Part shown: positions 705-51,158 of the stretch, one piece after another
Layout of the letters: each line of letters starts with the position of its first letter
Position numbering within the stretch: the first letter of the stretch is position 1
DNA from: Conexibacter woesei Iso977N
GTDB taxonomy: Bacteria > Actinomycetota > Thermoleophilia > Solirubrobacterales > Solirubrobacteraceae
DNA length: 64,000 nucleotides
Assembly: GCF_000424625.1 (NCBI RefSeq)
Contig: NZ_AUKG01000001.1
Coordinates: forward strand, 1,488,001 to 1,552,000
Reading direction: 5' to 3'
Program-made: the position numbers and the translations under genes
The notes under the pieces: model-generated
The model's database searches: none
What the model saw: the letters and a program-made list of their open reading frames with translations, nothing else
Told to the model about the DNA's origin: nothing

Positions 705-2804
<2,100 letters not shown>

Positions 2805-2915
2805 GCACACCGAGCGGACGTCTTCGGGCGGATCGCGATAGCTTGTCCTGGTTCGCCAGGCGAAGCCCCCTCAAGAACACCACCCCCGACTTTCACCAAC
2901 TAGGAGCGAACAGAA

Positions 2916-4100
<1,185 letters not shown>

Positions 4101-27037: not shown

Positions 27038-27526
27038 TCACGCCGCGGTGATGAACGGGTCCCAGTAGACGTTGTACTTCGTCGGGCGGATGCCGCCGAT
27101 CGTCACGAGCACGCGGATCTGGTACGTCTGCGAGCCGGCGGTGGTGGCCTGGCCGATCCAGTAGTTCGACGTCTGCTCCATGGGGTAGCCCTGCGAGCCG
27201 AAGACCGACCCCTGGGAGACGTTGAAGCCGGTGATCTCCACGGTGTCGCCCGCCGACGAGGCCGAGTTGATGGGGTAGACCTCGAAGCCGAGCAGGTCCT
27301 GCACGTTGCAGTGCGTGTGCAGCTCGAGCGAGCCTTCCCCCGTGCTGCCGTTGTTGATCCGGTTGTCGAACATGTAGATGCCCTCGGTGATCCCGCCGCC
27401 GCCGACCGAGGCGACGTAGGCGGTGTCGATCGCGATGGCGATGGCGGTCTGTGGCTGCAGGCCGGAGAGCGCGCTGACGGGCTCGATCTGGGCCGTGCCG
27501 GGGGTCTGTGCGGTGCCGAAGCTCAT
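27038..27526 (-). CDS. AidA/PixA-like inclusion body protein, second gene
   Basis: 162 residues from the ATG at 27526 (MSFGTAQTPGTAQIEPVSAL). The features I know from AidA/PixA inclusion-body proteins are the strand ITEGIYMFDNRINNGSTGEG near residue 46, a middle block GFEVYPINSASSAGDTVEIT, and the ending YNVYWDPFITA, close to the family's WWDPFI close. No signal peptide is visible. The start overlaps the stop of the first gene by 4 bases. PixA makes cytoplasmic inclusions in Xenorhabdus; the function of the family is otherwise open. G+C is lower than in neighbours. Confidence 0.75.
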   Translation of the reverse strand: MSFGTAQTPGTAQIEPVSALSGLQPQTAIAIAIDTAYVASVGGGGITEGIYMFDNRINNGSTGEGSLELHTHCNVQDLLGFEVYPINSASSAGDTVEITGFNVSQGSVFGSQGYPMEQTSNYWIGQATTAGSQTYQIRVLVTIGGIRPTKYNVYWDPFITAA

Positions 27527-27927
27527 GAGACGGTGACGCTCGGGTTGACGGTGACGGTGGTGAAGTTGACGTCCAGCGCCAACGAGTAGGGGGCGCTCCC
27601 GGTGTTCTCGACCTGCCCGGTGAAGATCGTGTTGTCCCTGCTCGCGCTCTGCGGCTGACCGGTGTTGCCCCACGCGTTGCTGTTGCCGATCGACTGGATC
27701 TGGAACTGCGTCAGATCGGCGTTCGGGTCGATCGGGATGATCTGCCAGCAGACGGTGGAGTTGTTGGTGCAGTTGGTGTCCAGCGCGGACGTGCCGCCGC
27801 CGGTGCTGCCCGAGCTGACGCGGTTGTCGACCAGGTAGACGCCCTCGGATCCCTGCCCCTGGATGATCGGGTTGATGTCGACCCAGACCTGGATGAACAC
27901 GTCACAGGTGCTTGGCGTGATGGCCAT
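27523..27927 (-). CDS. AidA/PixA-like inclusion body protein, first gene
   Basis: 134 residues from the ATG at 27927, with a strong GAGGAGGACCG Shine-Dalgarno. It starts MAITPSTCDVFIQVWVDINP like the beta-strand opening of AidA proteins, and GVYLVDNRVSSGSTGGG aligns with GIYMFDNRINNGSTGEG of the next gene, so the two are paralogues. It lacks the WDPFI ending and stops after SLALDVNFTTVTVNPSVTVS, a shortened variant. It contains three cysteines (8, 53, 60). A TTGACT-17-TACGGT promoter precedes it. Confidence 0.72.
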   Translation of the reverse strand: MAITPSTCDVFIQVWVDINPIIQGQGSEGVYLVDNRVSSGSTGGGTSALDTNCTNNSTVCWQIIPIDPNADLTQFQIQSIGNSNAWGNTGQPQSASRDNTIFTGQVENTGSAPYSLALDVNFTTVTVNPSVTVS

Positions 27928-27961
27928 CGGTCCTCCTCTGCCGCTCGTGGATTGAGCGAGC

Positions 27962-27990
27962 ACCGTAGATCCGCCGGACTGCTGAGTCAA
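27962..27990 (-). promoter_or_regulatory. putative promoter of the AidA-like gene pair
   Basis: On the reverse strand TTGACT (27985-27990) and TACGGT (27962-27967) are spaced by exactly 17 bases. The -35 matches five of six consensus bases, the -10 is weak. It lies about 35 bases before the Shine-Dalgarno and start of the first AidA-like gene. Confidence 0.55.
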
Positions 27991-27994
27991 GAAA

Positions 27995-28005
27995 AACTTA
28001 AAGTT
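27995..28005. promoter_or_regulatory. palindrome in the divergent control region
   Basis: AACTTAAAGTT is an 11-base perfect palindrome (AACTT, A, AAGTT) in the only AT-rich patch of the region, between the AidA promoter and the start of the opposite gene run. It is a candidate operator for coordinated control of both arms. Short AT palindromes can also arise by chance. Confidence 0.35.
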
Positions 28006-28054
28006 GGCTGTTCGCTATTGCTGTGGGATGCTGCGCGAGAGCGAGGAGGCTCGT

Positions 28055-29248: not shown

Positions 29249-29255
29249 GACGCCC

Positions 29256-32200
29256 GTGTCGGCCGGCTTCACCAGGGCGAGCCCGGAGTCCCCGCTGTGG
29301 GCCCTGGACGGCGCGCCCCCGGCGGTCACCGCGTGCTTTCGCCCGTTCGACCCCACCGGTGTCCCGGCGACCCTGCCGCTCGTCGCCACGCTGGACCCCG
29401 CCAACGCCGGCACGTACGTCTTCCTGCCGCCCGGCACCGCGCTCGCCGACCCGCTCCCGGCCGCGCTGGCGGCGTTCGTCGCCGCCCAGCCGCGCCCGCC
29501 GGCCCTCGCCTGGATCCCCGCGCCCGCTGGCCCGCCCGCGACCTGGCGCGCATCGACGATCGCCGCGGCCGGCGGCGCGACCGCGGGCGCGGCCGGCGTC
29601 CTGCTGCGCAACCTCGCGCTGTGGGTCGGCGCGGGCTGCGCGATCACGGTCGACGGGGACGCGCTCGTGCTGACGCCGCCGGTCGCCGGGCGCGTCTACG
29701 TGACCGGTGCCGCGGGCGCGGCGTCCTGGTCGACCGGCACCGCGCCGGTGACCGTGCCGTTCGCCGGGCCGCGCGCGGGCTGCCTGACCACGGCGATCAC
29801 GCTCGCCACCGCCACGGACCTCGACCGGCTGGACGTTGGCCTGCGCCTGTTCGCGCCCGGCGCGCCGACCGCCCCGCTGCGCGACCGCCTCACGTCCTGG
29901 CGCCTGCCGGTCTTCACGCCCGCGCCGGGCGGCGAGGTCCCCGTGCAGCTGAGCCTCGACCCGCTGAACCCGACCGTCCCGGCGCGCACCGCGTTCGGCC
30001 TGGCGCCCGCCCCCAGGGTGACCGCGCCGGAGCTGGGCTCCTACTACGTGACGACCAGCGGCCTGGCGGTGACGCTGACGCCGCTGGCCGACCCGCCCGC
30101 CGCGCTGGTCCCCGCGGTGCGTGCGCTCGCCGCCACCGCCGGGCCGGCCGACCCGTTCTACCTGGTGCCCAGCGGGGCGTTCGAGTTGACCGTGCGCGAT
30201 CAGCATGGCAACGTGATGACGGGTGCTCAGCGGCTGGCCTGCGGGACGTCGGGGCTGGAGTACGTCACGCTCGAGCAGCCCGGCAGCACCGTCGTCTTCA
30301 CCCCCGGTGGCGACGCGCTCGCGATCGGCCGCGGGCTGGAGGGCGGCGCGACCACCGCGTACGCGTCGCTCTTCGGGCCCGACGGCGCGGCGCTGACCTA
30401 CCGCGCCCAGCCCGAGTCCGCGCCGGTCTTCGCGCCGCCCGACGCGTCCGGCTACCTGGACTTCTACGAGCTCGCCGGCCAGCCGCTGCCCGCCGCGGGG
30501 GCGTCGCCGGCCGCCGTCTTCCCGATGCTGCCGTTCGCCGGCGTGGCGCCCCGCGACGCGGCGGCGGCCGCGGCGGTCGAGCGCGCCGCGGTCGCGCCCC
30601 TGCGCCGCAGCATCGTCGGCGCCGCCGCCCCGGTGACCGCGACGCGGCCGGACGCCGCCGTCACCAGGACCGTCGGCGCGACGCCGCAGGGCCTGCTCGG
30701 CGAGTTCGGCGACGGCGTCCTGAGCGCGCTCAACCTCCTGCAGTCCAACGGCCAGGCGATCCAGCTCGGCGCGGTGAGCGACCCGCTGCGCGAGGCGCTG
30801 CAGTCCAGCCAGCTGTTCCTGGTGGCGTCGGACCCGGCCGCGCTGCAGGGCCCGTCGCCGCCGGCCGTCGACTGGACGATCCAGATCCCCGCGACCGACG
30901 ACCGCTCGGAGTGGTGGACGCTGCAGGCCGGCCTGACCGGCGCGTGGAGGGACACCGGCACGCTGCTGATCGTCAAGCACGCCGGCACGTCGCTGGAGGC
31001 GCTGGCCGCCGACACGACCACGTGGACGCAGCCGACCGACTTCAACATCAACTCGGATGGCGTGCTCGACGCCCAGCGAACGCTGCAGGGCGCGATCGCC
31101 AAGGCGCGCGACCAGGTCACGGCCCACCCGGCGTTCCAGCCGTTCCTCGACCTCGTCGCCGACGCGTCGTGGCAGGGCCTGCTGATCCTCAACTGCGCGA
31201 TGCCGGTCGGCGACCTGCCGTCGCAGCTGGCCGGCCTCGGCGCGGGCATCCAGCAGAGCGGGTTCAAGGCCCATCACATCGGCCTGACGATCACGCCGGT
31301 CGCCCACGACGGCAAGGGCGCGCTGGTCCAGACCGACTCGTCGCTGTTCGGGCTGCTCTTCTACGAGAGCCCCCAGAGCGCCGCGGGCGCGCCCGGCCCG
31401 TACGCGTTCTCGGTCCAGTCGCTGCTCGTGCGCTGGGCCAACTCGGCGGTCGCGGACTTCTCCAGCGTCATCGACCTGCTCGTCGACGAGCTGTTCGGCG
31501 ACCCCGTGGCGCTCACGCGCTCCAGGGACAACGTCATCGAGCTCTACGGCGTCTACCAGCAGCAGGGCGGCGACTCCACCTACACCTTCACGACCCGCGA
31601 GGACAGCACGTTCGGCGCGACCAGCGGGGTGCTGTCCGCGGTCGACGTGGCCAGCGCGCAGTTCGTCACGGTCACGCCGCCGGGCCCGCAGGCCGCCGCC
31701 GAGTCCACGTTCCTGCTCAGCGGGTCGCTGCGCTACGTGGCGCCCAAGCTCCCGTTCGACCTGTTCTCCTACGGCCCGCCGCCGGACCCGCAGCCCGACG
31801 ACGCCGGCTGGCGGTTGGCCTACGCCAACCTGCGGATCGAGATCCGCTACACGCCGGGCGACCCGAGCAAGAACCAGTACATCTTCGACGCGACGAAGCT
31901 CGCGCTGGACCCGGCGCAGAGCGCGCCGCGCGCGGGCAGCCTCTTCGCGAGCTTCCCGCTCACGCCCAGCGGGTTCGTCCACGTGCCCAAGCCCGTGCCC
32001 GCGGCGGGCGGTGGCGGCGACGCCAGGCCGCCCGCGCCGGCGACGCCTGCGAGCCTCGGCTTCCTCGGCGTCGACGCGCCTCAGGCCGGCGGCGCGCTCG
32101 ACGCGCCGTGGTTCGGCGTCGTCGCCGACCTCGGGCTCGGCACGGCCGGCGCGCTGGCGTCGCAGCTCGGCTTCCGCGCGAGCCTCCTGGCGTCGTGGGC

Positions 32201-32501
32201 GCCGGGCGGCCCGTCGAGCCCGAACGTCGCGGTCGGCCTGAGGCTCCCGGGCTCCGGCGGCGGCGGAAGCCTGCTCAGCCTGGAGAGCGTCCTGCGGCTG
32301 AAGATCGGCGCGCTGGCCATGCAGCGCGCCGACGGCACCTACGTGCTCGCGCTCGACCGGATCACGCTGAGCGTGCTGATGCTGACGTTCCCGTCGCACG
32401 GCCAGGTCGGCGCGAGCCTCTTCGCCGACCCGACGGGCAAGGACCACACCACGCTGGGCTGGTACGCCGGCTACGCCAAGGACAAGGATCCCCAGAAATG
32501 A
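29256..32501 (+). CDS. 1081-residue beta-rich protein of unknown family
   Basis: GTG start 7 bases after the preceding gene; AGGACG lies upstream. The sequence is mostly short beta strands with Ala/Pro-rich linkers, no signal peptide and no membrane helix. An Ig-like piece FELTVRDQHGNVMTGAQRLA (about residue 309) resembles RLRDRFGNDLG in the giant protein. The C-terminal 120 residues (LRLKIGALAMQRADGTYVLA, then TLSVLMLTFPSHGQVGASLF) look like the long beta-sheet N-terminal part of the giant protein. It may be a structural partner of that protein. It overlaps the HNH gene by 4 bases. Family unknown. Confidence 0.85.
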   Translation: MSAGFTRASPESPLWALDGAPPAVTACFRPFDPTGVPATLPLVATLDPANAGTYVFLPPGTALADPLPAALAAFVAAQPRPPALAWIPAPAGPPATWRASTIAAAGGATAGAAGVLLRNLALWVGAGCAITVDGDALVLTPPVAGRVYVTGAAGAASWSTGTAPVTVPFAGPRAGCLTTAITLATATDLDRLDVGLRLFAPGAPTAPLRDRLTSWRLPVFTPAPGGEVPVQLSLDPLNPTVPARTAFGLAPAPRVTAPELGSYYVTTSGLAVTLTPLADPPAALVPAVRALAATAGPADPFYLVPSGAFELTVRDQHGNVMTGAQRLACGTSGLEYVTLEQPGSTVVFTPGGDALAIGRGLEGGATTAYASLFGPDGAALTYRAQPESAPVFAPPDASGYLDFYELAGQPLPAAGASPAAVFPMLPFAGVAPRDAAAAAAVERAAVAPLRRSIVGAAAPVTATRPDAAVTRTVGATPQGLLGEFGDGVLSALNLLQSNGQAIQLGAVSDPLREALQSSQLFLVASDPAALQGPSPPAVDWTIQIPATDDRSEWWTLQAGLTGAWRDTGTLLIVKHAGTSLEALAADTTTWTQPTDFNINSDGVLDAQRTLQGAIAKARDQVTAHPAFQPFLDLVADASWQGLLILNCAMPVGDLPSQLAGLGAGIQQSGFKAHHIGLTITPVAHDGKGALVQTDSSLFGLLFYESPQSAAGAPGPYAFSVQSLLVRWANSAVADFSSVIDLLVDELFGDPVALTRSRDNVIELYGVYQQQGGDSTYTFTTREDSTFGATSGVLSAVDVASAQFVTVTPPGPQAAAESTFLLSGSLRYVAPKLPFDLFSYGPPPDPQPDDAGWRLAYANLRIEIRYTPGDPSKNQYIFDATKLALDPAQSAPRAGSLFASFPLTPSGFVHVPKPVPAAGGGGDARPPAPATPASLGFLGVDAPQAGGALDAPWFGVVADLGLGTAGALASQLGFRASLLASWAPGGPSSPNVAVGLRLPGSGGGGSLLSLESVLRLKIGALAMQRADGTYVLALDRITLSVLMLTFPSHGQVGASLFADPTGKDHTTLGWYAGYAKDKDPQK

Positions 32502-33646
32502 GACCCCTTCGGCGGCCGGCCCGGCCCGGCACGTACCCCGACTTCAGCGTCAGGTCCACCTATGCGCAGCTGCGACTCGACCTCGCCGCCGTCAGGCTCA
32601 GGAGGCCCAGCGCGCGGATGCGCACGGCCCTCGGCATCGCCAGCCCCACGCCGATCACGCTGCTCGACGTGACCTTGGGCCTTCAGGACATCGCGATCAA
32701 CCCGCCGCCCGGGAGGAGGAGGGGCGCGCCGAGGCCCACGCCGCTGCAGGCAGGCAGAAGCCTCCTCATGCGACGGGTCGTCGCCCAGTACTCGGAGGCC
32801 AACGATCCCCTGCGGGCGGGGATGGGGCGCTTCTGCAGCTACTGCGAGCAGATGCTCTCGGAGTTCATCGCCACTGAGCACATCGTCGCCAAGGCGCCTT
32901 GGCCGCTGACCTCGGTGTCCTGGGACAACTTCCTGCTGTCCTGCCGCGCGTGCAACAGCTACAAGGGCGACCACCCCGACCGCGGCGAGGTGACCGCCTG
33001 GAGGCTGATGCCGCCGCCGGCCGACGACCTTGAGGCATATCTGGAGATCCGCAGGCGCTACCTGTGGCCGGACACCGATGCCAACGCCTACCGCGGCCTG
33101 CTCCCGGCGCTGTACTTCAGGCGGAGGAGCGGCGGTTGGCGGAGGGCGAACGCGGACCGGAGCGTGCGCAACGGGTTGCGGTGCGTGGACCACGGCAGGG
33201 AGCCGAACAAGATCGTGATCGCCGACATGCCCGTGAAGGGCAGGGTCCTGCGCCGCGAGGTCCGGGTCCTGTTGGTGCCCGACGGGGACGATGCGTCGTT
33301 CGCCAGGGAGACGCTCGACCTGAACAGGATGGACCTCGACGGCGTCGACAGCGGCGACGACAACCGGATGTGGGACCGGACCCAGCGCTGGCTCGAGGCG
33401 GTCGAGACGTTCACGGACCTGTCGCAGGCCTGGTCGCCGCAGCTCTGGACGGCGGCGTGTCGCAGCGCGAGGACCGGGTTCCTGTCCACTTGGGTCCGGG
33501 TCCTCGAGCTGCGGCAAGGCAAGACGACCAGGTTCCCCGGCGACCCGACCAGGACGATGATGCAGGCGTTCATGGAGGCGATGACCCAGCAGAGGGTCCA
33601 GCCCTACGGGCCCTATCCCGGCACCGACGTGAGGTACATCCCGTGA
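32498..33646 (+). CDS. HNH endonuclease-like protein
   Basis: 382 residues. A basic N-terminal region (residues 1-90) leads into a zinc-type HNH core: Cys113-x2-Cys116 in GRFCSYCEQML, the catalytic EHI at 127-129, WDN at 142-144, and Cys149-x2-Cys152 with Asn153 and Lys156 in SCRACNSYKGD. This layout is that of the HNH nucleases seen with retrons and in Septu PtuB. The remaining 220 residues show no known domain. The ATG overlaps the preceding stop (ATGA). Its target and its role in the cluster are unknown; a nuclease in a defence or DNA-processing module is an inference. Confidence 0.8.
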   Translation: MRPLRRPARPGTYPDFSVRSTYAQLRLDLAAVRLRRPSARMRTALGIASPTPITLLDVTLGLQDIAINPPPGRRRGAPRPTPLQAGRSLLMRRVVAQYSEANDPLRAGMGRFCSYCEQMLSEFIATEHIVAKAPWPLTSVSWDNFLLSCRACNSYKGDHPDRGEVTAWRLMPPPADDLEAYLEIRRRYLWPDTDANAYRGLLPALYFRRRSGGWRRANADRSVRNGLRCVDHGREPNKIVIADMPVKGRVLRREVRVLLVPDGDDASFARETLDLNRMDLDGVDSGDDNRMWDRTQRWLEAVETFTDLSQAWSPQLWTAACRSARTGFLSTWVRVLELRQGKTTRFPGDPTRTMMQAFMEAMTQQRVQPYGPYPGTDVRYIP

Positions 33647-34419
33647 TGCGCCCGCTCGCCCGCCCACCCTGGGAGCCGTGGTTCGAAGGCGCCGACGCGG
33701 GCCTCGTCGCCCAGTCCGCGTTCGGCCGCTTCTGCGCGGCGTGCGAGCGGCACCTCAACGAGGGCGTCGAGGCCTGGGACGCGCGGACCGGCCGCCGCGC
33801 CGCCGCGCGGGCGACGGCGAGCGGGTGGGACGACCTGCTGCCGCTGTGCGTCAACTGCCTGGCGGCGTCCGAGGCCGCGGCCGGCGCTGACCTCGGCGAC
33901 GACGCGGGCCTGCGCCCCGACCGGGCCGCCCCGTTCGCGGACGCCGCCGCGCCGCCGTTCACCTACGTGTCGGTCCCCGTGGCCGTGCGCGGCGCGGACG
34001 AGGCCGGCGACGCGAGCGCCCCGGCCACCGTCGAGCGCGTCCTGGTCCGCGGGCACACCCCCGCGGCCGTGGCCATGATCGGGCGCTTCGCGCTCAACAC
34101 CCCTCACCATGTGGTCACTTCGGACGGCGGCGACGCGCTGCTGCTCCCCGCCGGCACCCCGTTGAGGCTGCTGGACGCCTACGACCCGCGGCTGGAGCGC
34201 CGCACCGAGGCCTGGGTGGACGCCGAGATCGCCGCCGACGCGCTGGCGGCCGCGCCGCCCGGGGGCCGCGGGGCCGCGCTGCGGTCGCTCGGCTGGGGCA
34301 TGCGCTTCACGGGCTTCTGGTCGGTCTGGGCGCAGGTGCTGTGGGACCGCCTCCAGGACGACGAGGTGCTCGCGCGCGTCCGCGACCACCCGGCCTACCT
34401 CGGCACGCGGGCGGCCTGA
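33646..34419 (+). CDS. degenerate HNH-like paralogue
   Basis: 257 residues from the ATG at 33646 (a GTG at 33643 is also possible). The scaffold of the upstream HNH protein is repeated: GRFCAACERHL matches GRFCSYCEQML, and WDDLLPLCVNC matches WDNFLLSCRAC with the identical 7-residue spacing from Trp to Cys. The catalytic EHI is absent, Asn144 became Asp, and the terminal Asn/Lys pair is lost (CLAASEAAAG). It therefore looks like a zinc-binding but nuclease-dead partner. The stop overlaps the start of the giant gene by one base. Confidence 0.75.
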   Translation: MRPLARPPWEPWFEGADAGLVAQSAFGRFCAACERHLNEGVEAWDARTGRRAAARATASGWDDLLPLCVNCLAASEAAAGADLGDDAGLRPDRAAPFADAAAPPFTYVSVPVAVRGADEAGDASAPATVERVLVRGHTPAAVAMIGRFALNTPHHVVTSDGGDALLLPAGTPLRLLDAYDPRLERRTEAWVDAEIAADALAAAPPGGRGAALRSLGWGMRFTGFWSVWAQVLWDRLQDDEVLARVRDHPAYLGTRAA

Positions 34420-37400: not shown

Positions 37401-40400
37401 CAGATCACGCTCGCGGGCGAGAAGGCGGGGATCTTCGCGGGTCTCGACTTCGAGATCCTGTACCGCAAGCTCAGCGACTCGCTCGGCGTCTACCACATCG
37501 CCTTGAAGCTGCCGGACGTGATGCGCCACCTGGAGTTCGGCGAGGTGTCGATCACGCTGCCCAACGTCGTCGTCGACATCTACACCGACGGCAGCTTCTA
37601 CCTCGACCTCGGGTTCCCCTACAACAACGACTGGACCGTCTCCTTCGGCCTGCAGGTGTTCCCGTTCGTGGGCGCGGGCGGCTTCTACTTCGGCAAGCTC
37701 TCGACCGCCGCGGCGGCCGGGACCGACCTCGTGCCCATCATCACCAATGGGACGTTCGGTCCGGTCATCGAGTTCGGCGTCGCGCTGCAGGTCGGCGTCG
37801 GCAAGACGATCTCGGAGGGGCCGCTGCGCGCCGGCCTCTCGCTGACCGTCCAGGGCATCGTGACCGGCGTCGTCTCGTGGTTCAATCCGACCGACGCCTC
37901 GCTCGGCTCGGCGCAGTACTACCGGATCCAGGGCTCGGTCACGGTCGTCGGCCAGCTCTACGGCAGCGTCGACTTCAAGATCATCAGCATCGACATCTCG
38001 ATCGTCGCGACCGCGAGCGTGACGCTGACCGTCGAGTCCTACCAGCCGATCCTCGTCGGCCTCTCGCTCGACGTCAGGGTGCACGCGTCGATCAAGATCA
38101 TCTTCTTCACGATCCACTTCTCGTTCGGGCTGCACCTCGACGCGTCGTTCACGATCGGCTCGGCGCAGGCGACGCCGTGGACGCTCGCCGCGCCGGGCGC
38201 GGGCGGCGGGCCGAGGGCGTCGCTGGTCGCGCGCCGCCGCGCCGAGACCAGCCACCACGCGCACGCGGCGGCGCGAGCGCTGCTGGTCGCGGCGGTCCCG
38301 GAGCGCGCGCCGCTGACGTGGAGCCCGGTCGGCGTGCTCGGCGCCCCGGTCGCGATCGCCGTCGAGCTGATGCCGTTCCTGACGCCGGCCGTCGTCGACG
38401 GCGCGCCGGCCGCGGTGCAGGTCGTGCTGGTGCCCTTCGTGCAGACCAGCGTCCCGTCCGGCGCCGGGCACGACGAGTGGCGGACCGCGGTCGCCGGCGA
38501 CCCGGCGGCGACGGCCGACGACATGGCCTTCAACCAGATCGCCCGCGCGCTGCTGAAGTGGGGCATGCAGACGCTGATCGGCGCCCACGACGGCGACGTG
38601 ACCGCGGTCGACCTGCACCTGATCTACGACGACCTCAGCGCGACCGACGTCGCCGAGCGCGCCGTGGGCTTCGGCTACGACAACGTGGCCGCGTTCCTCG
38701 GCGCGAACCTCACGCTGACGCTGGCCGGGCCGCCCGCGAGGGCCGACGCGGTCGCGCGCGCGGTCCTGCCGATGCCGCCGCCGCTGCGGATGGCGCCGCC
38801 CGCGCCGCTGCCGGCCGTCTCGTTCTGGGAGGCGCCGGGCGTCGACGCGAGCTGGCGCGAGGACCTGCAGAGGATCTTCGACGAGCTGAAGGTCAACGCC
38901 GACTACAGCCGCGCGCCCGACCCGCTCGGCGACGACCCCGACGACGACGCCGCGGACGCCGCCGCGGGCACCGAGGAGCCGATCACCGAGGCGCTCTTCG
39001 CCGATTGGTTCCTGATGGTCGCGCGCTCGGTCTTCCAGAGCGCGCGCAACCTGCTGGCCCGTCACGAGCACGCGCCGACCGCCGCGGACAGCCTGCTCGG
39101 CCTGGCCCGCAGCTTCGCGCCCGAGGTCGGATACACGGTCCAGCAGGACGACACCGCCGCGTCGATCGCCGACCTGTTCGCGATCACCAGCGCGCAGCTG
39201 CTGGCGCGCAACCCCGGCGTCCCGATCGCGCCCGGCCAGAGGCTCGTCGTGCCTGCGCCGGTCGCCGAGGTCGAGCACGTCACGACGCCCGGCGAGACGC
39301 TCCAGACGCTCGCCACCGACTGGCACGTCGCCGCGCAGGCGATCGAGGACGCCAACCCCGACGTCGACTTCGCGCCGCTGGCCGCCGGGACCACGCTGCG
39401 GATCCCGGTCCCCGAGGCGATCGTGGCGATCGCCGACGCCAACCTCGACGCGCCGCTGGCCGACGGGCCGCTGACGATCGGCGGGCTGACCCACCAGGTG
39501 CGCACGGGGGAGACGCTCGGCTCGATCGCGACCGCCGCGCACGCCGCCGACGCCGGCGCGGTCGGCGAGGCCAACGCCGCCGCGCCCGGGATCCTGCTGA
39601 CCGGCGCGACGCTGCAGATCGCCGCGGCCGGGACGTCGCCTGCGTCGATCCCCTACATGTCGCAGGCCGGCGACACGCTGACGACGCTGGCGGCGATGCT
39701 GCTCGTCCGCGACCTCGGTGCGGTCGAGCACGCGTTCGGCGCCGACGCGAGCTACGCGTGGCTGGCCGGCGCGATCCCGGCGCTGGACGCCAACGCCGGC
39801 GTCGTCTTCTCCCCGCTGGCCGCCGGCGTGGCGCTGGAGATCCCCAACGTCGCGCTGGGCGACAAGGGCCTGCAGCCCAACGGCCCGCCGCTGGCCTACA
39901 CGACCAAGCCCGGCGACACGCTCGCGCTCGTCGCCGCGACGTTCGTGATGGCCGAGCTGCGCGCCGCCGAGACCGACATGGTGGCATTGGAGGCCGCGAT
40001 CCGCGCCGCGAACCCGTCGGTCGACTGGTCGGCGCCGCTGCCCCCGGCGACCAGGCTGCAGCTGCCGGCCTGCGCGCACACGATCGTCGCCGGCGACAGC
40101 CTCGCCACGCTGGCCGCGCGCTTCTGGGTGACGCCGCGCGACCTCGCGACGGTCAACGCGACCGCGCCGATCCTCGCGCCGACCGCGACGCTGCGGCTGC
40201 CCGCGGTCAGCGTCCCGGCCGCCGGGCTGACGCTCGCCACGCTGGCCGCCCAGCTCGGCGTGGGCGCCGAGGCGCTGGTCGGCGCGCTCGGGACCCACGC
40301 GGGCCTCTTCGCGATCGGTCCGAAGGTCAAACCGCTGAGCATCCCCGAGGTGCGCCAGATCGACGTCGACGTCCTCTCCCGCCTGCTCGTCTCCTCGGGC

Positions 40401-43400
40401 GAGGCCAACAGCGCGGCGGGCCAGGCGTCGTCGTTCCTGCTGCAGGGCCTCCAGGTTCCGGTGCCGAGGAAGGCCGGCCACAACGCGCCGCTGTTCGCGC
40501 TGACCGGCCAGCAGTTCCCGGGCCCCGGCGCACCGCAGGACACCACGATCACCTTCACGGCGCCCAACGGCGAGCGGTGGCTGTCGCTGGCCGGCGGCAC
40601 GGTCGCGGTCACGCTCACCCAGGCCCAGATGCAGACCGACTGGCCGAGTACGACGCTCGACCCGCAGATCGCCCCGGGCTACCCGAAGGCCGTCCCGCTC
40701 GGGCGCTCCGAGGCCGTCCGCCACCGTGTCGCGCCGCCGATCCCGTGGGCCGTCCCGGCGCTGCCCGTGCTCTCGGGCCCGACGCCGCCCGCGGGCGGCG
40801 GCCCGCAGCTCTTCGCGCTGCCGGCGAGCCTGCTCGCGCGCGTCGCGGCCGACCCCAACGCGCACCCCTACGACCTGATGACCGCCGCGAAGGGCGCGCA
40901 GGACGCGCCGGTCGCGGTGCCGACCTACGCGTGGGCGACGTGGGTGCCGTTCACCGTCCGGCGCGTGCCCGGCCCCGGCGGCACGACGGTCGCCAACGCC
41001 AACGCCTACGTCGCGCTCGGCGCCGACGCGGCGGGCGCCGACGTCCTGCTCGCGCTGTGGACGTGGCTGCAGAGGCAGGACGCGGGCGTGACGCTGTACC
41101 TCGGGCACGCCGACGCGTCGGGCATCGGCGTCGTCTCGGAGGCGGTCGACCCCGCGCGCGTCGCGCTCGTCAAGGCGAACCTCTCGACCGAGACCCACAG
41201 CCCGCGGGCGATGGCCGACGCGCTGACCGGCGGCACGCCGCCGCCGCCCGCCGCGGCGACGCTGGCCGACGGCTGGCCGTTCGCGCAGCTGCTGTGGGAG
41301 GCGACGATCACCGGCTCCGGCGGCTTCTACCTCAACTACGAGACGACCGCCGGCGGGCCGCTGCCCGACGCGGTGTTCGCGGGCGGCGAGGACGCGACGC
41401 TGATGCTGATCGCGGTCCTCGACGAGCAGGCCACCGCGGGCGGCCCCGGCTACCGGACGCTGCACCCGTTCACGACGGGCGCGCTGGTCGAGGGCAACCT
41501 CGACCCCGGCCGCTACGACGTCTTCGCCGCGGCCGCCGACGGCAGCGACACGACGACGGTGGCGACCGCGCCGCCCGGCAACGTCGCGTTCGCCCTCCAG
41601 CGGACCAACCCGAGCCCGGCCAACGGCGGCGACCCCAGCGCGGAGGACCGAACCCGCGCGCTGTACAGCATGCTCTCGCTGACGCTCGCCGGCACCGGCT
41701 TCGGCACGCCGGAGCTCGTCCTGCCCACCGGCCCCAAGACCGACGACGACCCCGCCGCGTGGCGCTATGACCGGACCGTCCCGGTCTACAAGCAGGCCAC
41801 GACGCGCCCCGCGCCGCTGCCCGATGCGCTGCCCGACGCGGCCAGGGACGACCCGTACGCGGGCGTCGCCGCGGGCGCGGCGGTGACGATCGACCTGCGG
41901 CTGCGCGACCGCTTCGGCAACGACCTCGGCGCCGACGCGGGCAGCGCCGGGCCGATCGCGGTGGGCTACTACGACCCGGTCATCGGCGTGTCGGGCTGGC
42001 CGAGCGCCACGGCGGCCTACGTCATCGACGGGCCCGACGGCGCCGCCGCGCTGCGGCTGGTCGTCGACCTCGGCCTGGACCGCTACGTCCCCGGCCCGTC
42101 GAACCTGTTCGCCGCCGCGGTCCGGGGCGCCGCCGCCGACCGGACGACCTACGGCCAGGCGTTCTTCCAGCTGCGCCAGCCGGACGTGACCTGCGCGGTC
42201 ACCACGTCGCTGGACTCCGGCGGGCACGCGTTCCTGGACGGCGCCGCGGTCAAGGCGCCGCTGCTGGCCTTCGTCACCGGCGCCTACGTGTACCTCGGGA
42301 TGGCCCAGGCGCTCGAGCCGGCCGAGCTGACGGTCCCGGCGGCGGGCGGGGCGACGACGCTCCTGGACCTCGCCACCGACCTGTTCGTCACGCCCGGCCA
42401 GCTCGCCGCGGCCAACGCCGCCGCCGACGGGTCGCAGCTGTTCGCGGGCCCGATCGTCCTGCCGACGCTGCACGTCGTCCGCGCCGGCGACACGCTCACC
42501 GCGATCGCGAGCGCTGCCGCGCTGTCGGTCGACGCGTTGTTGATGGCCAACACGACCGTCGCGCTGAACGCGGGCGCGGTCCTGCAGACGGCGGTCCGGA
42601 CCTACACGCCGGCCTCCGGCGACACGCTCACCGCGATCGCGGCGCTGGAGGACACGACGATCGCCGACCTGGCGATCGCCAACTCCGCGACGCCCGGGCT
42701 GCTCACGCCGTGGAGCGGGACGATCGGCGCCTACACGCTGAGGATCACCGCGACCGACACCTTCGCCACGCTCGTCGCCCAGCTCGCCGCGCAGGACGCG
42801 ACGATCACGACGCCCGCCGACGTCGGGCGCGCGCTGGCCAACCTGCCGTCGATCTTCGTCGCGGGAACGCCGATCGCGATCGCGAGCGCGCCGGTCGACC
42901 CGCACGACGCCACCGGCGCGCGGACGGTGACGACCGGCGCCGGGCAGTCGCTGGCCGAGGTCGCGACCGCCGCCGGCTGCAGCGTCGCCGGGCTCGCGCT
43001 GGCCAACGGCCAGACGGCGGGCGTGCTGATCCCGGGGACGACGGTCGACGTCGAGGGCGTGATCGTCGCCGTGCCGGCCGCGGGCAGCTTCGTGGCGCTG
43101 GTCGAGGCGCTGCGCGCGCAGGGGCTCGTGGTCGGGATCGCCGAGGTCGCACGGGCGCTGGCGGGCGACACGCCGCTGCTGGCCGACAGGGTCGTCCTGG
43201 CCGTCGCCGACCACGTCGTCGCCGCGGGCGAGACGCTCGCCACCAGCGCGGTGCTCACGCCGGCGATCCTGGCGCTCTTCGACGCGTCCGCCACCGACGT
43301 GTACGCCATCGGCACGCCGCTGGTCGTCGCCACCGAGCACTACGGCCCGCAGCCCGGCGACACGCTCGCCGCGCTGGCGGGCGAGAACGCGCTGACCGTC

Positions 43401-46400
43401 GACCAGCTCGCCGCCGCCAACGCGCTGACCGCGCTCGCGCCCGGCGCGCAGCTCGCGCACCCCGGTGGCGTGGGGGTGGGCGCGACGAGCCAGGCGCCGT
43501 GCCAGATCGCCTTCGACGCGACCAGGCCGCCGACCGTCGCGGCGATCGCGACGACGTTCGGCACGGACGCGGGCGCGCTCGGGACGCTGAACGCCGACAT
43601 GCCCGGGCTCTTCGTCCCGAACGTGACGATCGCCTATCCCGGCCATCCGGTCACGACGTCGAGCACCTCGACGCCGGCGTCGCTGGCCGCCGAGGCCGGC
43701 GCGCCCGACGTCGGCACCTTCATGGCGAACGCCGCGGTCGCCGACGCCGCCGGGCTCGTCGCGCCGGGCGCGCTCTTCGTCGCGCCGCTGCCGCCGCTGG
43801 CCGGTGCGCTGGACGTGTTCGCGTCCGCTGTCGGCGTCGCCACGCTCGACCTCGCCTCGGCCAACGCGGCGCTCGTCGGCCTCGTCACGCCGCAGCACGC
43901 GCTCACGGTGACGATCGCCCAGGCCACGGTCACCGTCACCTCCGGCGCGCACGACACGCTCGCCACGCTCCTGCGCCGCGTGCAGGCGACGGCGCCCGGC
44001 GCGCAGCTGGCCGACGTCGTCGCCGCGTGCGTGACCGACCCGGCCGCGCTCGTCGCGGGCACGCCGCTGATCGTGCCGCCGGCGCCGGTGACGCTCACCG
44101 GCCCGCTCGCCGAGCCCGTGGCGCTGAGCGCGACGATGACGCCGCTGGAGGTCACGATCACCGTCGCGCGCGACCCCGCGCTGCGCGACCCGGCCTTCGC
44201 CGACGCGCCCGACGTCGCCGCCAACGCGACCGCGGTCTCGCCCGAGCTGGGCCATCCGCCGACGCTCGCCGGGTTCGCCACGGCCTTCGAGGCGGCGTTC
44301 GCCACGCGCCGCCTCAAGCTCGCCACCGGCCCGCAGCCCGCCGGGGCCGCGCCGCGGCTGTGGGTCGCCGACTTCGGCCCGGCCGGGATCGCCCGCGTGA
44401 CGGTCGACGGCGACGGCGCGCGCTTCCATGCGGTCGCGCCGATGCGCCGCACGCTGGCCGGCGGCGCGGTCGGCATCAAGTCCTACAACCCGTCCAGCGG
44501 CAGGCTCGGCGCGCCGGTCACGCAGACGTTCGCCTCCGCCGACCTCGACGGCTGGATGCGCGCCGCGCTGACCGCGATCGACCTCGTCCTCTCGCCTGCG
44601 GTCGCTGCGGCGGCCTGGCGCCTGGATCCCGCCGGCGTCGACGCGCTCGTCGCCGCCAAGGGGACGATCGCCAAGCTGCTCAGCGAGCGCGTTCACTCGA
44701 TCCTCCAGACCGGCGACGACCCCGGCGCCGACGCGGCCGCCCGGGACGCGCTCTACCAGGGCATGTTGGTGTCCTTGGCCAGCGCGTACGCCACCGACGC
44801 GGTGATCAGCTACCCGGTGACCGTGTCCTCGCCGTTCTCGGGCCCGCTCGCGCCGCGGCTGTCGGGCAAGGCCGTGGCCCGGCAGTACCAGGTCGCGCCG
44901 GGCGCCGGCGTCGCCGAGGCCGCCGCCTGGTACGGCGTCAGCCTGGAGGCGATGGCCGCCGCGCTCGCCGACGCGCAGGTGCTGAACGCGGGCGCGCCGG
45001 GCCATCCGGTCACCGCCACGTTCGGCGGCCGCTCGGTCGAGGTCGGCGGCGCCGACACGCTGACGACGCTCGCCGCCGCGCTCGGCGCGCCCGGCGTCCT
45101 GGCGCTGCTGGCCGGCGTCACGCTCGCGCCCGCCGGCGCGGGGCTGCTGCGCCCCGGCGCCCAGCTCGGCCTCGGCCGCGCGACGACCACGCCCGGCAGG
45201 GCCGACAGCTTCACCACCGTCGCCGCGTACTTCGAGCAGCAGCCCGCGGCGCTGGCGATCGCCAACCAGGACCGGCCCGGCGTGCTGGCGACGCAGACGC
45301 TCAGCTACGGCGGCCGGACGCATCCGGTCGTCGCGACCGACACGATCGCGATCGTCGCCCAGGCGCTCGCGCTGACGCCCGCGACGCTGGCCGTCGCCCC
45401 GGGCCTCGGCGACGCGCCCGGGATCTTCGCCGCGACGCCGCTGCACGCGCTGCAGGTCCTGCCGGACCTCTCGCTGTCCACGGCCAAGGCGCCGCTGGCC
45501 GACGGCGCCAACCACGTGGCGTTCCTGTTCGGCACCGGCAGCGACGCGTCGTTCAAGAGCCTGTTCCTGGACGTCGACTACGACGTCTCGGAGATCGAGT
45601 TCGCCATCGAGGACGTCCCGCAGGCCGGCGACTACCAGTCCTCGGACTGGCTGCGGCTCGTGATCCCGCTGGGGACCTCGGCGTTCGGCGGCGCGGTCGA
45701 CCTCGCGCCCGGTCAGACGCAGGTGCCGATCCCGCTGCGCGCGTTCCCGCTGCTGCCGTCGGTCGTCGAGCTCACCGAGCAGGCCGCGGTGCCGCGCCCG
45801 GCCACGATCGCCGAGGCCAAGGAGTGGGAGCTGGCCGCGACGATCCAGCACCAGAGCGCGGCCCAGGACACGCTCCAGCTCGAGGTCGCCTTCGGCGCGG
45901 TCCCGGCCGAGCTCGACGCCGACGGCCCCGACCCGCTGCTCGCGCCGCTGGCGCAGTTCGTCGCCGCGTGGCGCGACATGCAGAACGACGTCGCCGCGCT
46001 CGCCGCGCTGCCCGCGACGGCCGTCTCACCGCCCGCCAAGCTCGTCGAGCTGGTCGGCTCGCTGGCCACGCTGGCCGGCGACCTGGCGACCGGGCTGGCC
46101 GCGGCGCCGCGGGCGTTCGGCCGCGTCGCGGCCGACGGGCAGCTCTACTACTTCGCGCTGGAGCCGACGATCGACCACACCGGTCCGGTGCCGGTGATCG
46201 ACTTCTTCGACCTCGGCGTCCTGCCCGGCAGCGACGCCGAGGACGTGCCGTGGCCGACCGTCCACCTCGGCGACCCGGCCCGGCCGCTGCAGCGCGCGGT
46301 GCTGCCCGACGGCCGCCGGCGCTACACCTACAACTCGCCCCGGCCGCCCGCGTTCGCGTCGCTCACGCAGACCTACATCTTCCCCGGCGACGCGCCCGGC

Positions 46401-46997
46401 CGCGACGCGGTCGTCTACGAGACCGGGCAGACGGCGGTCGCCGCGCAGCGCAACGCCGACCTGGTGACCACCGCCGCGACCGCCGACGGGTTCCTCTACC
46501 AGACGCCGTGGGTGACGTTCTCCAGCCCCGCCGTCCCGTACCTCGTCGCGCCGGACCCGATCCCGGCACCCACCGGCGCCGACCTGCAGACCGCGGTCAC
46601 CGCCGCGCTGACCGAGCTGCTGAGCAGCGACGGCCTGCCGATCGACGGCCAGCACCGCATCCGGCTGCTGTGCACCTACGAGCGCCTGCTCGCCGGCACC
46701 GACGACGGCGACGCCGCCGTCTGGATGGGCCAGCCCGTCGTCTACCTCCCGCAGCGCCTCATGGCGCTCGCCGACGCCCCGACCGTCGCATCGGAGATCG
46801 CGACCCGCGCCGCGACCTGGGCCGCCACCATCCAGCCCCACCCACTCGACGCCTACATCCTGGACCTGTCGATCTTCGCCACCACCGACGCCGCGATGAC
46901 ACGCCCCCTGGTCGCGATCCCCCGGATCGTCGTGCCGGTGACGGCGGTCAGGAACGACTCGGCGGCCGGCGTCCCACCGCCCGTGCGGCGGGGGTGA
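34419..46997 (+). CDS. giant 4192-residue protein with beta-rich N-terminal region and multiple LysM-like repeats
   Basis: The frame is uninterrupted for 12.6 kb. Residues 1-1260 are repeating beta strands (LVVSPVALTYNSGTGAVGAS, LPNVVVDIYTDGSFYLDLGF, SFGLQVFPFVGAGGFYFGKL), possibly a DUF6603-like or long-groove fold, from memory and unverified. A linker with an acidic patch (GDDPDDDAADAAAGTEEP) follows. About 20 LysM-like units lie at residues 1571-1964, 2641-3224 and 3488-3684, with an Ig-like and mixed region in between. The C-terminal 500 residues are unassigned. No signal peptide or membrane anchor is seen, so wall binding is doubtful unless it is released or exported otherwise. The last 50 bases overlap an opposite-strand gene. 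Confidence 0.88.
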   Translation: MGLLETIQGNLDAARPSGTVPLDATTLTAAGQPVLDLFQEHLGAPAVALRGDATVALAGGVLTVTGTGTGASAVVLGLSAPSLRAELTLAGGTGALQIALRIGGTGWTLRATFPQLAANTPLGALTFGTTPAFTLRSTDGAADKYGLLAPAGLSLATTIAVADAAPFSALTPIYALPAAGTTLDFAGPVTAAPGPEALSLRTGPGRTATRPLAVSGIGTFTLAQAAIALDAVATEGADRLWAGVAAAEVWGTASAGGRETVFAISPPSGVASWLLGVVPGLNVPLTQLLGVVPGLSVVPVLPDGVQQVIDGEVTAFSFVLSVAGTTATPTGLDIAVQTTTPWTILQGVLELKRLQLALELSWENGPRLLGGAVGGALMLGDVEVDVSVPLPATRGEILVWSQPDAALPGLGALAGLLGGADLAAALPPGVASLGGLRLLSLSATVGLSPPALPEVGLGLATAPWRILPGLVLDGVVLDVTVANPLTAPAVTGSIAGRASFGTGPHPATLTVAVQRWTADGDWLLVADVRDLELPSLADFATLAGADPTSLLPASLAGQDDMRFTLVDLGIEADLTAGTLDLFHVQVAMKPWDIAPGYFRVDQLGGSLVIDWRSGAAVYSGQLIATLAFGDGAAQLVLEGDRATDGSWTLSGRLTDEVDLIELVQKALGLTPSRSDFGSLVVSPVALTYNSGTGAVGASYTFDAAARWTPRLEAVSFELDAGVHLERSSEAKYSGAIMGSLGAHFGTHALELSVGYLFQQQNGSTSYVFGLRFDQLTLTGTYSKRANADEIVTVRLGGVTFGGIVTYLVNLADPDLHFALSPPWDVLNKIRFDDLSLVVNLTQRSVGITYKVGQDLGLIDIDTIGLTYVRSGGSPGVKLEITGSFLGQRYTPDQPLGWDLLKDSPPTPSGQGTQLFDLRLLGIGQHLVLVDPHADTMAKIIDELSAVVQKTKDRKQPWELLEFDAGAGWLLAADFTLMETLRLRLVFDDPVLYGVQITLAGEKAGIFAGLDFEILYRKLSDSLGVYHIALKLPDVMRHLEFGEVSITLPNVVVDIYTDGSFYLDLGFPYNNDWTVSFGLQVFPFVGAGGFYFGKLSTAAAAGTDLVPIITNGTFGPVIEFGVALQVGVGKTISEGPLRAGLSLTVQGIVTGVVSWFNPTDASLGSAQYYRIQGSVTVVGQLYGSVDFKIISIDISIVATASVTLTVESYQPILVGLSLDVRVHASIKIIFFTIHFSFGLHLDASFTIGSAQATPWTLAAPGAGGGPRASLVARRRAETSHHAHAAARALLVAAVPERAPLTWSPVGVLGAPVAIAVELMPFLTPAVVDGAPAAVQVVLVPFVQTSVPSGAGHDEWRTAVAGDPAATADDMAFNQIARALLKWGMQTLIGAHDGDVTAVDLHLIYDDLSATDVAERAVGFGYDNVAAFLGANLTLTLAGPPARADAVARAVLPMPPPLRMAPPAPLPAVSFWEAPGVDASWREDLQRIFDELKVNADYSRAPDPLGDDPDDDAADAAAGTEEPITEALFADWFLMVARSVFQSARNLLARHEHAPTAADSLLGLARSFAPEVGYTVQQDDTAASIADLFAITSAQLLARNPGVPIAPGQRLVVPAPVAEVEHVTTPGETLQTLATDWHVAAQAIEDANPDVDFAPLAAGTTLRIPVPEAIVAIADANLDAPLADGPLTIGGLTHQVRTGETLGSIATAAHAADAGAVGEANAAAPGILLTGATLQIAAAGTSPASIPYMSQAGDTLTTLAAMLLVRDLGAVEHAFGADASYAWLAGAIPALDANAGVVFSPLAAGVALEIPNVALGDKGLQPNGPPLAYTTKPGDTLALVAATFVMAELRAAETDMVALEAAIRAANPSVDWSAPLPPATRLQLPACAHTIVAGDSLATLAARFWVTPRDLATVNATAPILAPTATLRLPAVSVPAAGLTLATLAAQLGVGAEALVGALGTHAGLFAIGPKVKPLSIPEVRQIDVDVLSRLLVSSGEANSAAGQASSFLLQGLQVPVPRKAGHNAPLFALTGQQFPGPGAPQDTTITFTAPNGERWLSLAGGTVAVTLTQAQMQTDWPSTTLDPQIAPGYPKAVPLGRSEAVRHRVAPPIPWAVPALPVLSGPTPPAGGGPQLFALPASLLARVAADPNAHPYDLMTAAKGAQDAPVAVPTYAWATWVPFTVRRVPGPGGTTVANANAYVALGADAAGADVLLALWTWLQRQDAGVTLYLGHADASGIGVVSEAVDPARVALVKANLSTETHSPRAMADALTGGTPPPPAAATLADGWPFAQLLWEATITGSGGFYLNYETTAGGPLPDAVFAGGEDATLMLIAVLDEQATAGGPGYRTLHPFTTGALVEGNLDPGRYDVFAAAADGSDTTTVATAPPGNVAFALQRTNPSPANGGDPSAEDRTRALYSMLSLTLAGTGFGTPELVLPTGPKTDDDPAAWRYDRTVPVYKQATTRPAPLPDALPDAARDDPYAGVAAGAAVTIDLRLRDRFGNDLGADAGSAGPIAVGYYDPVIGVSGWPSATAAYVIDGPDGAAALRLVVDLGLDRYVPGPSNLFAAAVRGAAADRTTYGQAFFQLRQPDVTCAVTTSLDSGGHAFLDGAAVKAPLLAFVTGAYVYLGMAQALEPAELTVPAAGGATTLLDLATDLFVTPGQLAAANAAADGSQLFAGPIVLPTLHVVRAGDTLTAIASAAALSVDALLMANTTVALNAGAVLQTAVRTYTPASGDTLTAIAALEDTTIADLAIANSATPGLLTPWSGTIGAYTLRITATDTFATLVAQLAAQDATITTPADVGRALANLPSIFVAGTPIAIASAPVDPHDATGARTVTTGAGQSLAEVATAAGCSVAGLALANGQTAGVLIPGTTVDVEGVIVAVPAAGSFVALVEALRAQGLVVGIAEVARALAGDTPLLADRVVLAVADHVVAAGETLATSAVLTPAILALFDASATDVYAIGTPLVVATEHYGPQPGDTLAALAGENALTVDQLAAANALTALAPGAQLAHPGGVGVGATSQAPCQIAFDATRPPTVAAIATTFGTDAGALGTLNADMPGLFVPNVTIAYPGHPVTTSSTSTPASLAAEAGAPDVGTFMANAAVADAAGLVAPGALFVAPLPPLAGALDVFASAVGVATLDLASANAALVGLVTPQHALTVTIAQATVTVTSGAHDTLATLLRRVQATAPGAQLADVVAACVTDPAALVAGTPLIVPPAPVTLTGPLAEPVALSATMTPLEVTITVARDPALRDPAFADAPDVAANATAVSPELGHPPTLAGFATAFEAAFATRRLKLATGPQPAGAAPRLWVADFGPAGIARVTVDGDGARFHAVAPMRRTLAGGAVGIKSYNPSSGRLGAPVTQTFASADLDGWMRAALTAIDLVLSPAVAAAAWRLDPAGVDALVAAKGTIAKLLSERVHSILQTGDDPGADAAARDALYQGMLVSLASAYATDAVISYPVTVSSPFSGPLAPRLSGKAVARQYQVAPGAGVAEAAAWYGVSLEAMAAALADAQVLNAGAPGHPVTATFGGRSVEVGGADTLTTLAAALGAPGVLALLAGVTLAPAGAGLLRPGAQLGLGRATTTPGRADSFTTVAAYFEQQPAALAIANQDRPGVLATQTLSYGGRTHPVVATDTIAIVAQALALTPATLAVAPGLGDAPGIFAATPLHALQVLPDLSLSTAKAPLADGANHVAFLFGTGSDASFKSLFLDVDYDVSEIEFAIEDVPQAGDYQSSDWLRLVIPLGTSAFGGAVDLAPGQTQVPIPLRAFPLLPSVVELTEQAAVPRPATIAEAKEWELAATIQHQSAAQDTLQLEVAFGAVPAELDADGPDPLLAPLAQFVAAWRDMQNDVAALAALPATAVSPPAKLVELVGSLATLAGDLATGLAAAPRAFGRVAADGQLYYFALEPTIDHTGPVPVIDFFDLGVLPGSDAEDVPWPTVHLGDPARPLQRAVLPDGRRRYTYNSPRPPAFASLTQTYIFPGDAPGRDAVVYETGQTAVAAQRNADLVTTAATADGFLYQTPWVTFSSPAVPYLVAPDPIPAPTGADLQTAVTAALTELLSSDGLPIDGQHRIRLLCTYERLLAGTDDGDAAVWMGQPVVYLPQRLMALADAPTVASEIATRAATWAATIQPHPLDAYILDLSIFATTDAAMTRPLVAIPRIVVPVTAVRNDSAAGVPPPVRRG
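39130..40310 (+). repeat. LysM-like repeat block 1 in the giant protein
   Basis: Six to seven units in a row, each with a [YH]xVxxGDTLxxIA-type opening: YTVQQDDTAASIADLF, HVTTPGETLQTLATDWHV, HQVRTGETLGSIATAA, YMSQAGDTLTTLAAML, YTTKPGDTLALVAATF and HTIVAGDSLATLAARFWV, then a partial AGLTLATLAAQLGVG. Most close with a PG-x-L-x-[IL]P strand such as PGQRLVVPAP. These are the clearest LysM units in the protein. Confidence 0.8.
42340..44090 (+). repeat. LysM-like repeat block 2 in the giant protein
   Basis: About ten units, some degenerate. Good ones are HVVRAGDTLTAIASAAAL, YTPASGDTLTAIAALEDT, TVTTGAGQSLAEVATAAG, HVVAAGETLATSAV and YGPQPGDTLAALAGENAL. Weaker ones include ITATDTFATLVAQL, VAVPAAGSFVALVEAL, VTSGAHDTLATLLRRV. 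Each is followed by an AN- or GT-containing helix and a closing strand. Repeat decay increases towards the C-terminal side. Confidence 0.7.
44880..45470 (+). repeat. LysM-like repeat block 3 in the giant protein
   Basis: Four degenerate units: YQVAPGAGVAEAAAWYGV, VEVGGADTLTTLAAALGA, TTPGRADSFTTVAAYFEQ and VVATDTIAIVAQALAL, each followed by a short closing strand. They are separated from block 2 by about 260 non-repeat residues. Confidence 0.55.
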
Positions 46998-47634: not shown

Positions 47635-47694
47635 CGTCGGTCCTGATGGTCGCCGCGGCGCGGGGCGCATCGCGGTTGCAGCGCCGGGTCGAGC

Positions 47695-51015: not shown

Positions 51016-51158
51016 GGAGGAACGCGGCTCCTTTGCGGTGATCGAAGCCGCCGGGCGCACGAAAGACCTCCCGGCGTTTGCCGCGCCGGGGCCCGCGCGT
51101 CAGGCGGCGAGGGGGATGAGGGTTGGTGGGTGGACTGTGGCGGGTGGGGCGGACGGTC

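Follow-up and report, generated by a model that had tools for sequence, protein, structure and literature searches.

A putative rare accessory system of Conexibacter woesei with a giant LysM protein and an exchangeable enzyme

Here we are asking whether a cluster of seven adjacent genes in Conexibacter woesei Iso977N forms one functional unit and what such a unit may do. The DNA analysed, called the window below, is a stretch of 64,000 nucleotides (NCBI RefSeq assembly GCF_000424625.1, contig NZ_AUKG01000001.1, positions 1,488,001 to 1,552,000). Two of the genes (P1 and P2) lie on the minus strand and five (A to E, the last one coding for a giant protein with LysM repeats) on the plus strand. 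Judged by comparison with other genomes, A–E appear to be a copy of an accessory system that is rare and has spread horizontally. B and the giant LysM protein E would make up its constant chassis, in most cases with A or small beta proteins lying upstream. It is very likely that the system is new and that no named system combines these parts. Scans of the seven window proteins against Pfam, NCBIfam, PHROGs and PADLOC gave matches to LysM, HNH/PtuB and MakCD only, and searches of the open-access PMC literature gave no description of a system with this combination of parts, in agreement with a first-pass annotation of the window, which knew of no described system of this kind.

Occurrence of the B–E pair and its exchangeable enzymes

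Genomes were scanned with the core of E, which gave 218 relatives, and 80 loci were kept. They come from ten phyla: Actinomycetota, Acidobacteriota, Cyanobacteriota, Bacteroidota, Pseudomonadota, Bacillota, Chloroflexota, Eremiobacterota, Verrucomicrobiota and Chlorobiota. B is located directly upstream of E, on the same strand, in 75 of the 75 loci in which the contig reaches far enough; in the five loci without B the sequence breaks off inside E or no more than about 3 kb upstream. When 72,556 plasmids were searched by tblastn, the E and B queries returned the identical 8 records, belonging to Alphaproteobacteria, Betaproteobacteria, Cyanobacteria, Bacilli and Actinomycetes. In an independent test on 345 Bacteroidota genomes E was present in 3 and B in the same 3, adjacent to each other, and neither was detected elsewhere. 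One Bacteroidota B gene (G513:C11:242366-245818) has two in-frame TAA stops inside the match, with the adjoining E open, and we report it as a decaying or misassembled copy. Homologues that never co-occur would have spoken against the single unit proposed in the first-pass annotation; the outcome was strongly in its favour, presence and absence of B and E being identical and the gene order fixed.

The complete set A-B-C-D-E, in the order of the window, was found in Cellulomonas phragmiteti at 31–44% identity (A 44%, D 31%). Together with the fixed order of B and E in 75 loci it supports, for A–E, the single functional unit that had been claimed. Of the seven genes, only P1 and P2 are not found with the others elsewhere. 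Within Actinomycetota the system is very rare; the operon occurs in 2 of the 199 genomes of the class, and the window's genome carries a single copy. In a tree of the E core, starred forks unite different phyla, e.g. Peptococcaceae with Rhizobium, and therefore the system moves horizontally. An empty site was established by aligning all window proteins to the corresponding region of a genome from the same genus. There, the genes on the left (ribosomal proteins, truA, surE) and on the right (51159 onward) are collinear with the window, while the stretch from surE to the gene at 51159, roughly 26 kb in the window, is taken up by about 4.4 kb of unrelated genes. Two related IclR/HTH-like regulators, at 25735-26505 (+) and 50404-51060 (-), share 39% identity over 88 amino acids (aa); they lie near both ends of the stretch missing there and may delimit the insert. 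A phage or virus origin is not supported; 50,697 phages gave no match and 2.9 million viral contigs a single one.

Beside the constant pair there is a slot for an enzyme, usually between B and E, and between A and B in Pseudomonas, Nitrosospira and their kin. According to the protein cluster lists of the loci, it is filled by an EEP (DNase-I-like) enzyme in 34 loci and by one to three proteins of the metallo-beta-lactamase (MBL) fold in 28, whereas HNH enzymes were found only in Cellulomonas phragmiteti and the window. In a cyanobacterial clade of 10 loci, from marine and other cyanobacteria (L032, L036, L039, L054, L056, L061, L062, L064, L065, L070), two small conserved non-enzymatic open reading frames (ORFs) take its place, and 7 loci, some of them truncated, have no recognised slot enzyme. 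A genome of the window's class (G198) carries MBL in place of HNH, and two of the plasmid copies carry EEP. Catalytic motifs are intact in most slot enzymes, and on the E-core tree the enzyme class changes at least five times. The MBL enzyme is tandemly duplicated, in 2 or 3 copies, in loci L021, L038, L041, L044, L048, L075 and L084.

In the window, gene C has a complete HNH motif (CSYC...EHIV...WDNFLLSCRAC) and matches the PADLOC PtuB model PDLC00315 with E 4e-26; an NCBIfam PtuB match with E 3e-6 is listed with it. Gene D matches the same PADLOC model with E 2e-9 and is a weak paralogue of C (28% over 58 aa, E 5e-4) that has lost the EH and N positions and retained both CxxC knuckles. With the motif of C complete and D lacking the catalytic EH and N, the first-pass description of a nuclease and a nuclease-dead paralogue was right. 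The HNH gene, taken there as defining, is indeed present, but across the loci it is one of at least three alternative enzymes.

Other proteins accompany some copies. Wide flanks were taken for 20 loci, and in 6 of these, as also in Tistrella, a Hint-domain (intein-like) protein is encoded upstream of A, with none in the window; apart from L033, which has an EEP enzyme, the Hint-bearing loci carry MBL enzymes. Six such loci, most of them MBL-type, have conserved Hint proteins of about 570 aa directly upstream of A (L125:17378-19081, L124:15536-17398, L122:15808-17478, L129:16121-17845, L123:742-2430 and L121:14818-16563). The Paenibacillus copy has a NAL1/trypsin-like protein upstream, and the Nostoc copy a LamG protein downstream.

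Predicted folds and cellular location of A, B and E

The LysM giant of the first-pass annotation was confirmed, since its array matches Pfam LysM with E 7e-35 (119 bits over a protein of 4192 aa) and several repeats pass individually. LysM was found in all 12 E proteins scanned and is the only broadly shared Pfam family there. Among relatives E measures 3000–4700 aa, of which LysM is a minor part, the rest being dominated by beta-rich domains without a family; the C-terminus (aa 3680-4192) is conserved across loci. A further LysM-like motif was detected by motif scan near aa 3544. DUF6603, considered as a candidate domain, was absent from the Pfam scans of the seven window proteins and the 12 E proteins, and the term had no literature match.

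The core of E (aa 800-1265) consists of strands of about 20 residues with marked alternation of polar and non-polar positions, with a beta-amphipathicity z of 6.6 for aa 1090-1265. An AlphaFold2 (AF2) model of aa 360-1330 (predicted local distance difference test, pLDDT, 81; predicted template modelling score 0.47) is mostly beta. Compared by VIA with barrel and trough proteins, including ApoB, Tom40, ushers and porins, the model gave Z 11–13.7, above the stated background, at a root-mean-square deviation (rmsd) of 6.5–19 Å. Foldseek with the same model gave no significant match, and a PDB sequence search with the E-core profile gave none. From the model we read the core as a long, curved amphipathic sheet that may be barrel- or groove-like; we do not read it as a member of any porin family, the high-rmsd matches being taken as those of a long curved beta-meander alone.

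No Pfam family was found in 41 members of B beyond single chance-level matches, nor a PDB relative by sequence with the B profile. Its AF2 model (mean pLDDT 86) is mostly beta; it had no real match by Foldseek, and the best VIA Z of 4.9 (porins, autotransporter barrels) is not above background. The folds of B and of the E core are thus model predictions. A is the counterpart of the C-terminal portion of longer proteins that occupy the equivalent position in other loci (blastp: Nostoc 1325 aa, E 3e-34; Tistrella 1053 aa, E 3e-31), and its relatives often carry fn3 or LamG domains by Pfam.

Signal peptides were judged by a simple heuristic Sec scan, with start codons uncertain. None was detected in the seven window proteins, as the first-pass annotation had claimed, and none in 16 A, 71 B and 88 E proteins (Tat signals were not tested separately). 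A Sec leader or lipobox is present on 12 slot enzymes from 10 loci, namely MBL enzymes in some Bacteroidota (L060, L073, L074, L075, L084, L089, L090) and EEP enzymes in Pseudomonas/Nitrosospira (L022, L026, L030); B and E are without a leader also in operons whose MBL or EEP enzyme has one. Among the small upstream proteins, 18 of 38 have a leader of the Sec or lipoprotein type. In composition, A, B and E resemble extracytoplasmic beta-rich proteins: compared with flanking genes, Cys is 0.3–0.7% vs 1.1%, Lys+Arg 6.2% vs 10.7% and Asn/Thr/Ser/Gly 28–30% vs 23%. This composition, taken with the leader-bearing enzymes and small proteins, is circumstantial evidence for a role outside the cytoplasm, reached by a route other than Sec. 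The first-pass preference for an intracellular assembly is in this way weakly contradicted, by the composition and by the leaders on partner enzymes in 10 loci.

Possible function of the system

We favour, tentatively but ahead of intracellular defence and extracellular scavenging, a reading in which the A–E system is a released or exported complex deploying an effector in conflict; its location, targets, delivery and every functional step are what we infer. A system of conflict fits because a slot for phosphodiesterase-type hydrolases, a giant LysM partner, a Hint helper and horizontal spread come together. According to this reading, A, B and E would form a very large extracytoplasmic complex, which would exit the producer without Sec, through lysis or another route. 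The LysM arrays of E would bind cell-wall glycan, and its amphipathic beta-meander might be a barrel- or trough-like body touching or crossing the envelope. A and B would link E to the active part, an exchangeable metal-dependent hydrolase of the HNH, EEP or MBL fold, which would damage a competitor or predator; here it would be the HNH nuclease C. The dead paralogue D could help C or keep it inactive, and the Hint protein, where present, may perform an autoproteolytic processing step.

Several observations weigh against this proposal. A, B and E carry no secretion signal and no secretion system is co-encoded, the composition of the HNH enzyme C is cytosol-like, and most EEP and MBL enzymes lack a leader. 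No immunity gene was recognised in the loci. Some loci have no recognised enzyme (the two-ORF cyanobacterial clade, Clostridium magnum, Azospirillum B510), and the barrel-like matches of E at 6.5–19 Å may reflect a shared beta-meander alone. Also, the enzyme class mostly tracks the E tree, so exchange is occasional, unlike the rapid swapping typical of polymorphic toxins.

With those toxins and with Rhs proteins the system shares a constant large beta-rich part, an exchangeable nuclease and horizontal spread; the Hint proteins upstream of A in seven other loci, but not in the window, may correspond to a pre-toxin processing module. It is not a polymorphic toxin of any known architecture, and differs in that the enzyme is a separate gene and not a C-terminal domain, the C-terminus of E is conserved and exchange is slow; RHS/YD repeats or known trafficking domains were not found by Pfam in 12 E, 41 B and 39 A-type and small upstream proteins. 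No sheath, tube or baseplate genes were found among the operon genes or the 25 families most often represented in 115 flanking genes. LysM cell-wall proteins resemble E by the arrays present in every E examined, but E is without a signal peptide and LysM is a minor part of its 3000–4700 aa. A stronger form of the favoured reading is doubtful, though worth stating: A, B and E, none with a signal peptide, would together be a giant protein machine of a new class, targeted by LysM and with a barrel-like amphipathic beta core, carrying or deploying interchangeable nucleases or phosphodiesterases between cells in at least ten phyla, and unrelated to contractile injection, Tc and Rhs systems.

Intracellular anti-phage defence, with B and E as a cytosolic sensor or scaffold unleashing the nuclease (HNH like PtuB, EEP or MBL) upon phage detection, we consider unlikely. 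Gene C is nearest to PtuB of Septu, and one plasmid copy has type III-B CRISPR and SIR2 genes in its vicinity. Exchange of effectors on an invariant core, a patchy distribution through horizontal transfer and the absence of Sec signals from A, B and E are all usual for defence. However, the operon has no PtuA, other NTPase or sensor domain, the flanks show no enrichment in defence genes (5 weak or mostly unspecific matches in 115 genes of 20 loci), and leader-bearing enzymes, LysM arrays and extracytoplasmic composition do not suit a cytosolic role. The relation to Septu and retron-Ec78 is limited to the PtuB-type HNH, shared strongly by gene C and weakly by D. Neither a PtuA ATPase nor a reverse transcriptase was found with the window's HNH gene, no ATPase family matched among the seven genes, and the only Walker-A motif detected in window genes by motif scan was that of EF-Tu. 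Because PtuA is absent, the system is not Septu despite the relatedness of its HNH to PtuB; here the HNH gene sits within the A-B-E chassis, and unrelated enzymes replace it in most relatives.

Still a little weaker is the case for an extracellular or surface processing machine, in which E would anchor a hydrolase at the surface through LysM and the complex would degrade or import environmental DNA, RNA or phospholipid. Known families with EEP and ComEC-like MBL folds have nucleic acids or other phosphodiesters as substrates. Some of the enzymes are exported or lipoproteins, relatives of A have fn3 and LamG domains, and the modelled E core resembles lipid-carrying or barrel beta-meanders (ApoB, LptD, porins), all of which would suit such a machine. 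B and E, on the other hand, lack an export signal, the flanks of 20 loci contain no conspicuous transporter or nutrient gene, and the dead HNH paralogue is left unexplained. The inclusion or particle preferred by the first-pass annotation, assembled inside the cell from an inclusion-body pair and beta-rich proteins, is highly improbable: P1 and P2 do resemble inclusion-body and MakCD proteins and no signal peptide is present on A, B or E, but the other loci have no P1/P2-like genes and the composition of A, B and E is extracytoplasmic-like.

B and E, the latter of up to about 4700 aa, are very large families that travel together over ten phyla without a family entry or structure, and the slot beside them is filled by three unrelated hydrolases. 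Should B and E turn out to deploy nucleases against phages or other cells, an entire type of bacterial weaponry or defence would have escaped notice so far. The strict co-occurrence of B and E makes the function directly testable in cultured carriers, whichever reading holds.

Layout of the locus and the P1/P2 pair

The coordinates of the seven genes and of parts of E are given in Table 1. The plus-strand genes A-B-C-D-E make a tight unit (28055-46997), with spacing of +7 (A/B), -4 (B/C), -1 (C/D) and -1 (D/E) bases, as the claimed overlaps or gaps of at most 7 bases had it. Third-position GC is 0.94–0.99 for each of the seven genes, and therefore all are real coding frames. A sigma-70-like site was sought in the region between P2 and A and was not found.

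Table 1. Features of the cluster (positions in the window)
Feature	Position	Strand	Basis
P1, MakCD/inclusion-body-protein-like beta protein, 162 aa	27038..27526	-	NCBIfam MakCD, PDB matches
P2, P1 paralogue, 134 aa	27523..27927	-	NCBIfam MakCD; blastp vs P1
Intergenic control region, divergent P2/A, 127 bases	27928..28054		sequence
A, 397 aa	28055..29248	+	blastp to longer proteins at equivalent place in other loci
B, 1081 aa, core protein	29256..32501	+	75/75 loci; no Pfam family
C, HNH nuclease, 382 aa, net charge +16, exchangeable enzyme here	32498..33646	+	PADLOC PtuB; motif
D, degenerate HNH paralogue, 257 aa, zinc knuckles kept	33646..34419	+	PADLOC PtuB PDLC00315
E, giant core protein, 4192 aa, about 460 kDa	34419..46997	+	LysM; relatives in ten phyla
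E most conserved part, aa 800-1265, predicted long amphipathic antiparallel beta-meander	36816..38213	+	alignment, AF2
E LysM block 1, aa about 1560-1990	39096..40388	+	Pfam and genome hidden Markov model (HMM) matches, motif scan
E LysM block 2, aa about 2640-3010	42336..43448	+	Pfam and genome HMM matches, motif scan

P1 and P2 overlap by 4 bases and are paralogues (28% over 97 aa, blastp E 1.7e-7), with GC of 64–67% vs 72% in the window. The first-pass annotation had called them AidA/PixA-like. No Pfam PixA match was obtained for either at E <= 1; NCBIfam MakCD matched instead, under its curated cut-off of 110 bits, with E 7.7e-16 (58 bits) for P1 and E 9.7e-15 (55 bits) for P2. P1 also matches the PDB entries 8rqy ('inclusion body protein', E 1.2e-4) and 6tct (MakD, E 0.025). 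The family is present in 1 of the 199 genomes of the class, the window's own, and no homologue was found near any other locus, which goes against counting this pair in the unit. As P1 and P2 adjoin the operon only here, the adjacency of two rare things is suggestive of membership in the system, no more.

In the cytosol, MakC and MakD serve as accessory proteins, and the two together are required for MakB and MakE to be expressed normally and for MakA to be secreted (PMC11484084). By analogy, P1 and P2 might be cytosolic helpers of this kind for expression or release of the neighbouring large proteins, which we regard as rather unlikely. The family match and the adjacency of pair and operon, both very rare in the class (1/199 and 2/199) and yet side by side next to large proteins, would agree with it. 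Here, however, the pair scores under the cut-off, is divergent from the operon and is not conserved with it elsewhere, and B and E are not alpha-pore-forming toxins: there was no family match to the alpha-helical MakA/B/E-like proteins, and B and the E core are predicted to be mostly beta. The cluster is not a Mak operon.

At the other end of the cluster, a predicted membrane protein gene at 46948-47670 (-) is convergent with E and overlaps its final 50 bases.
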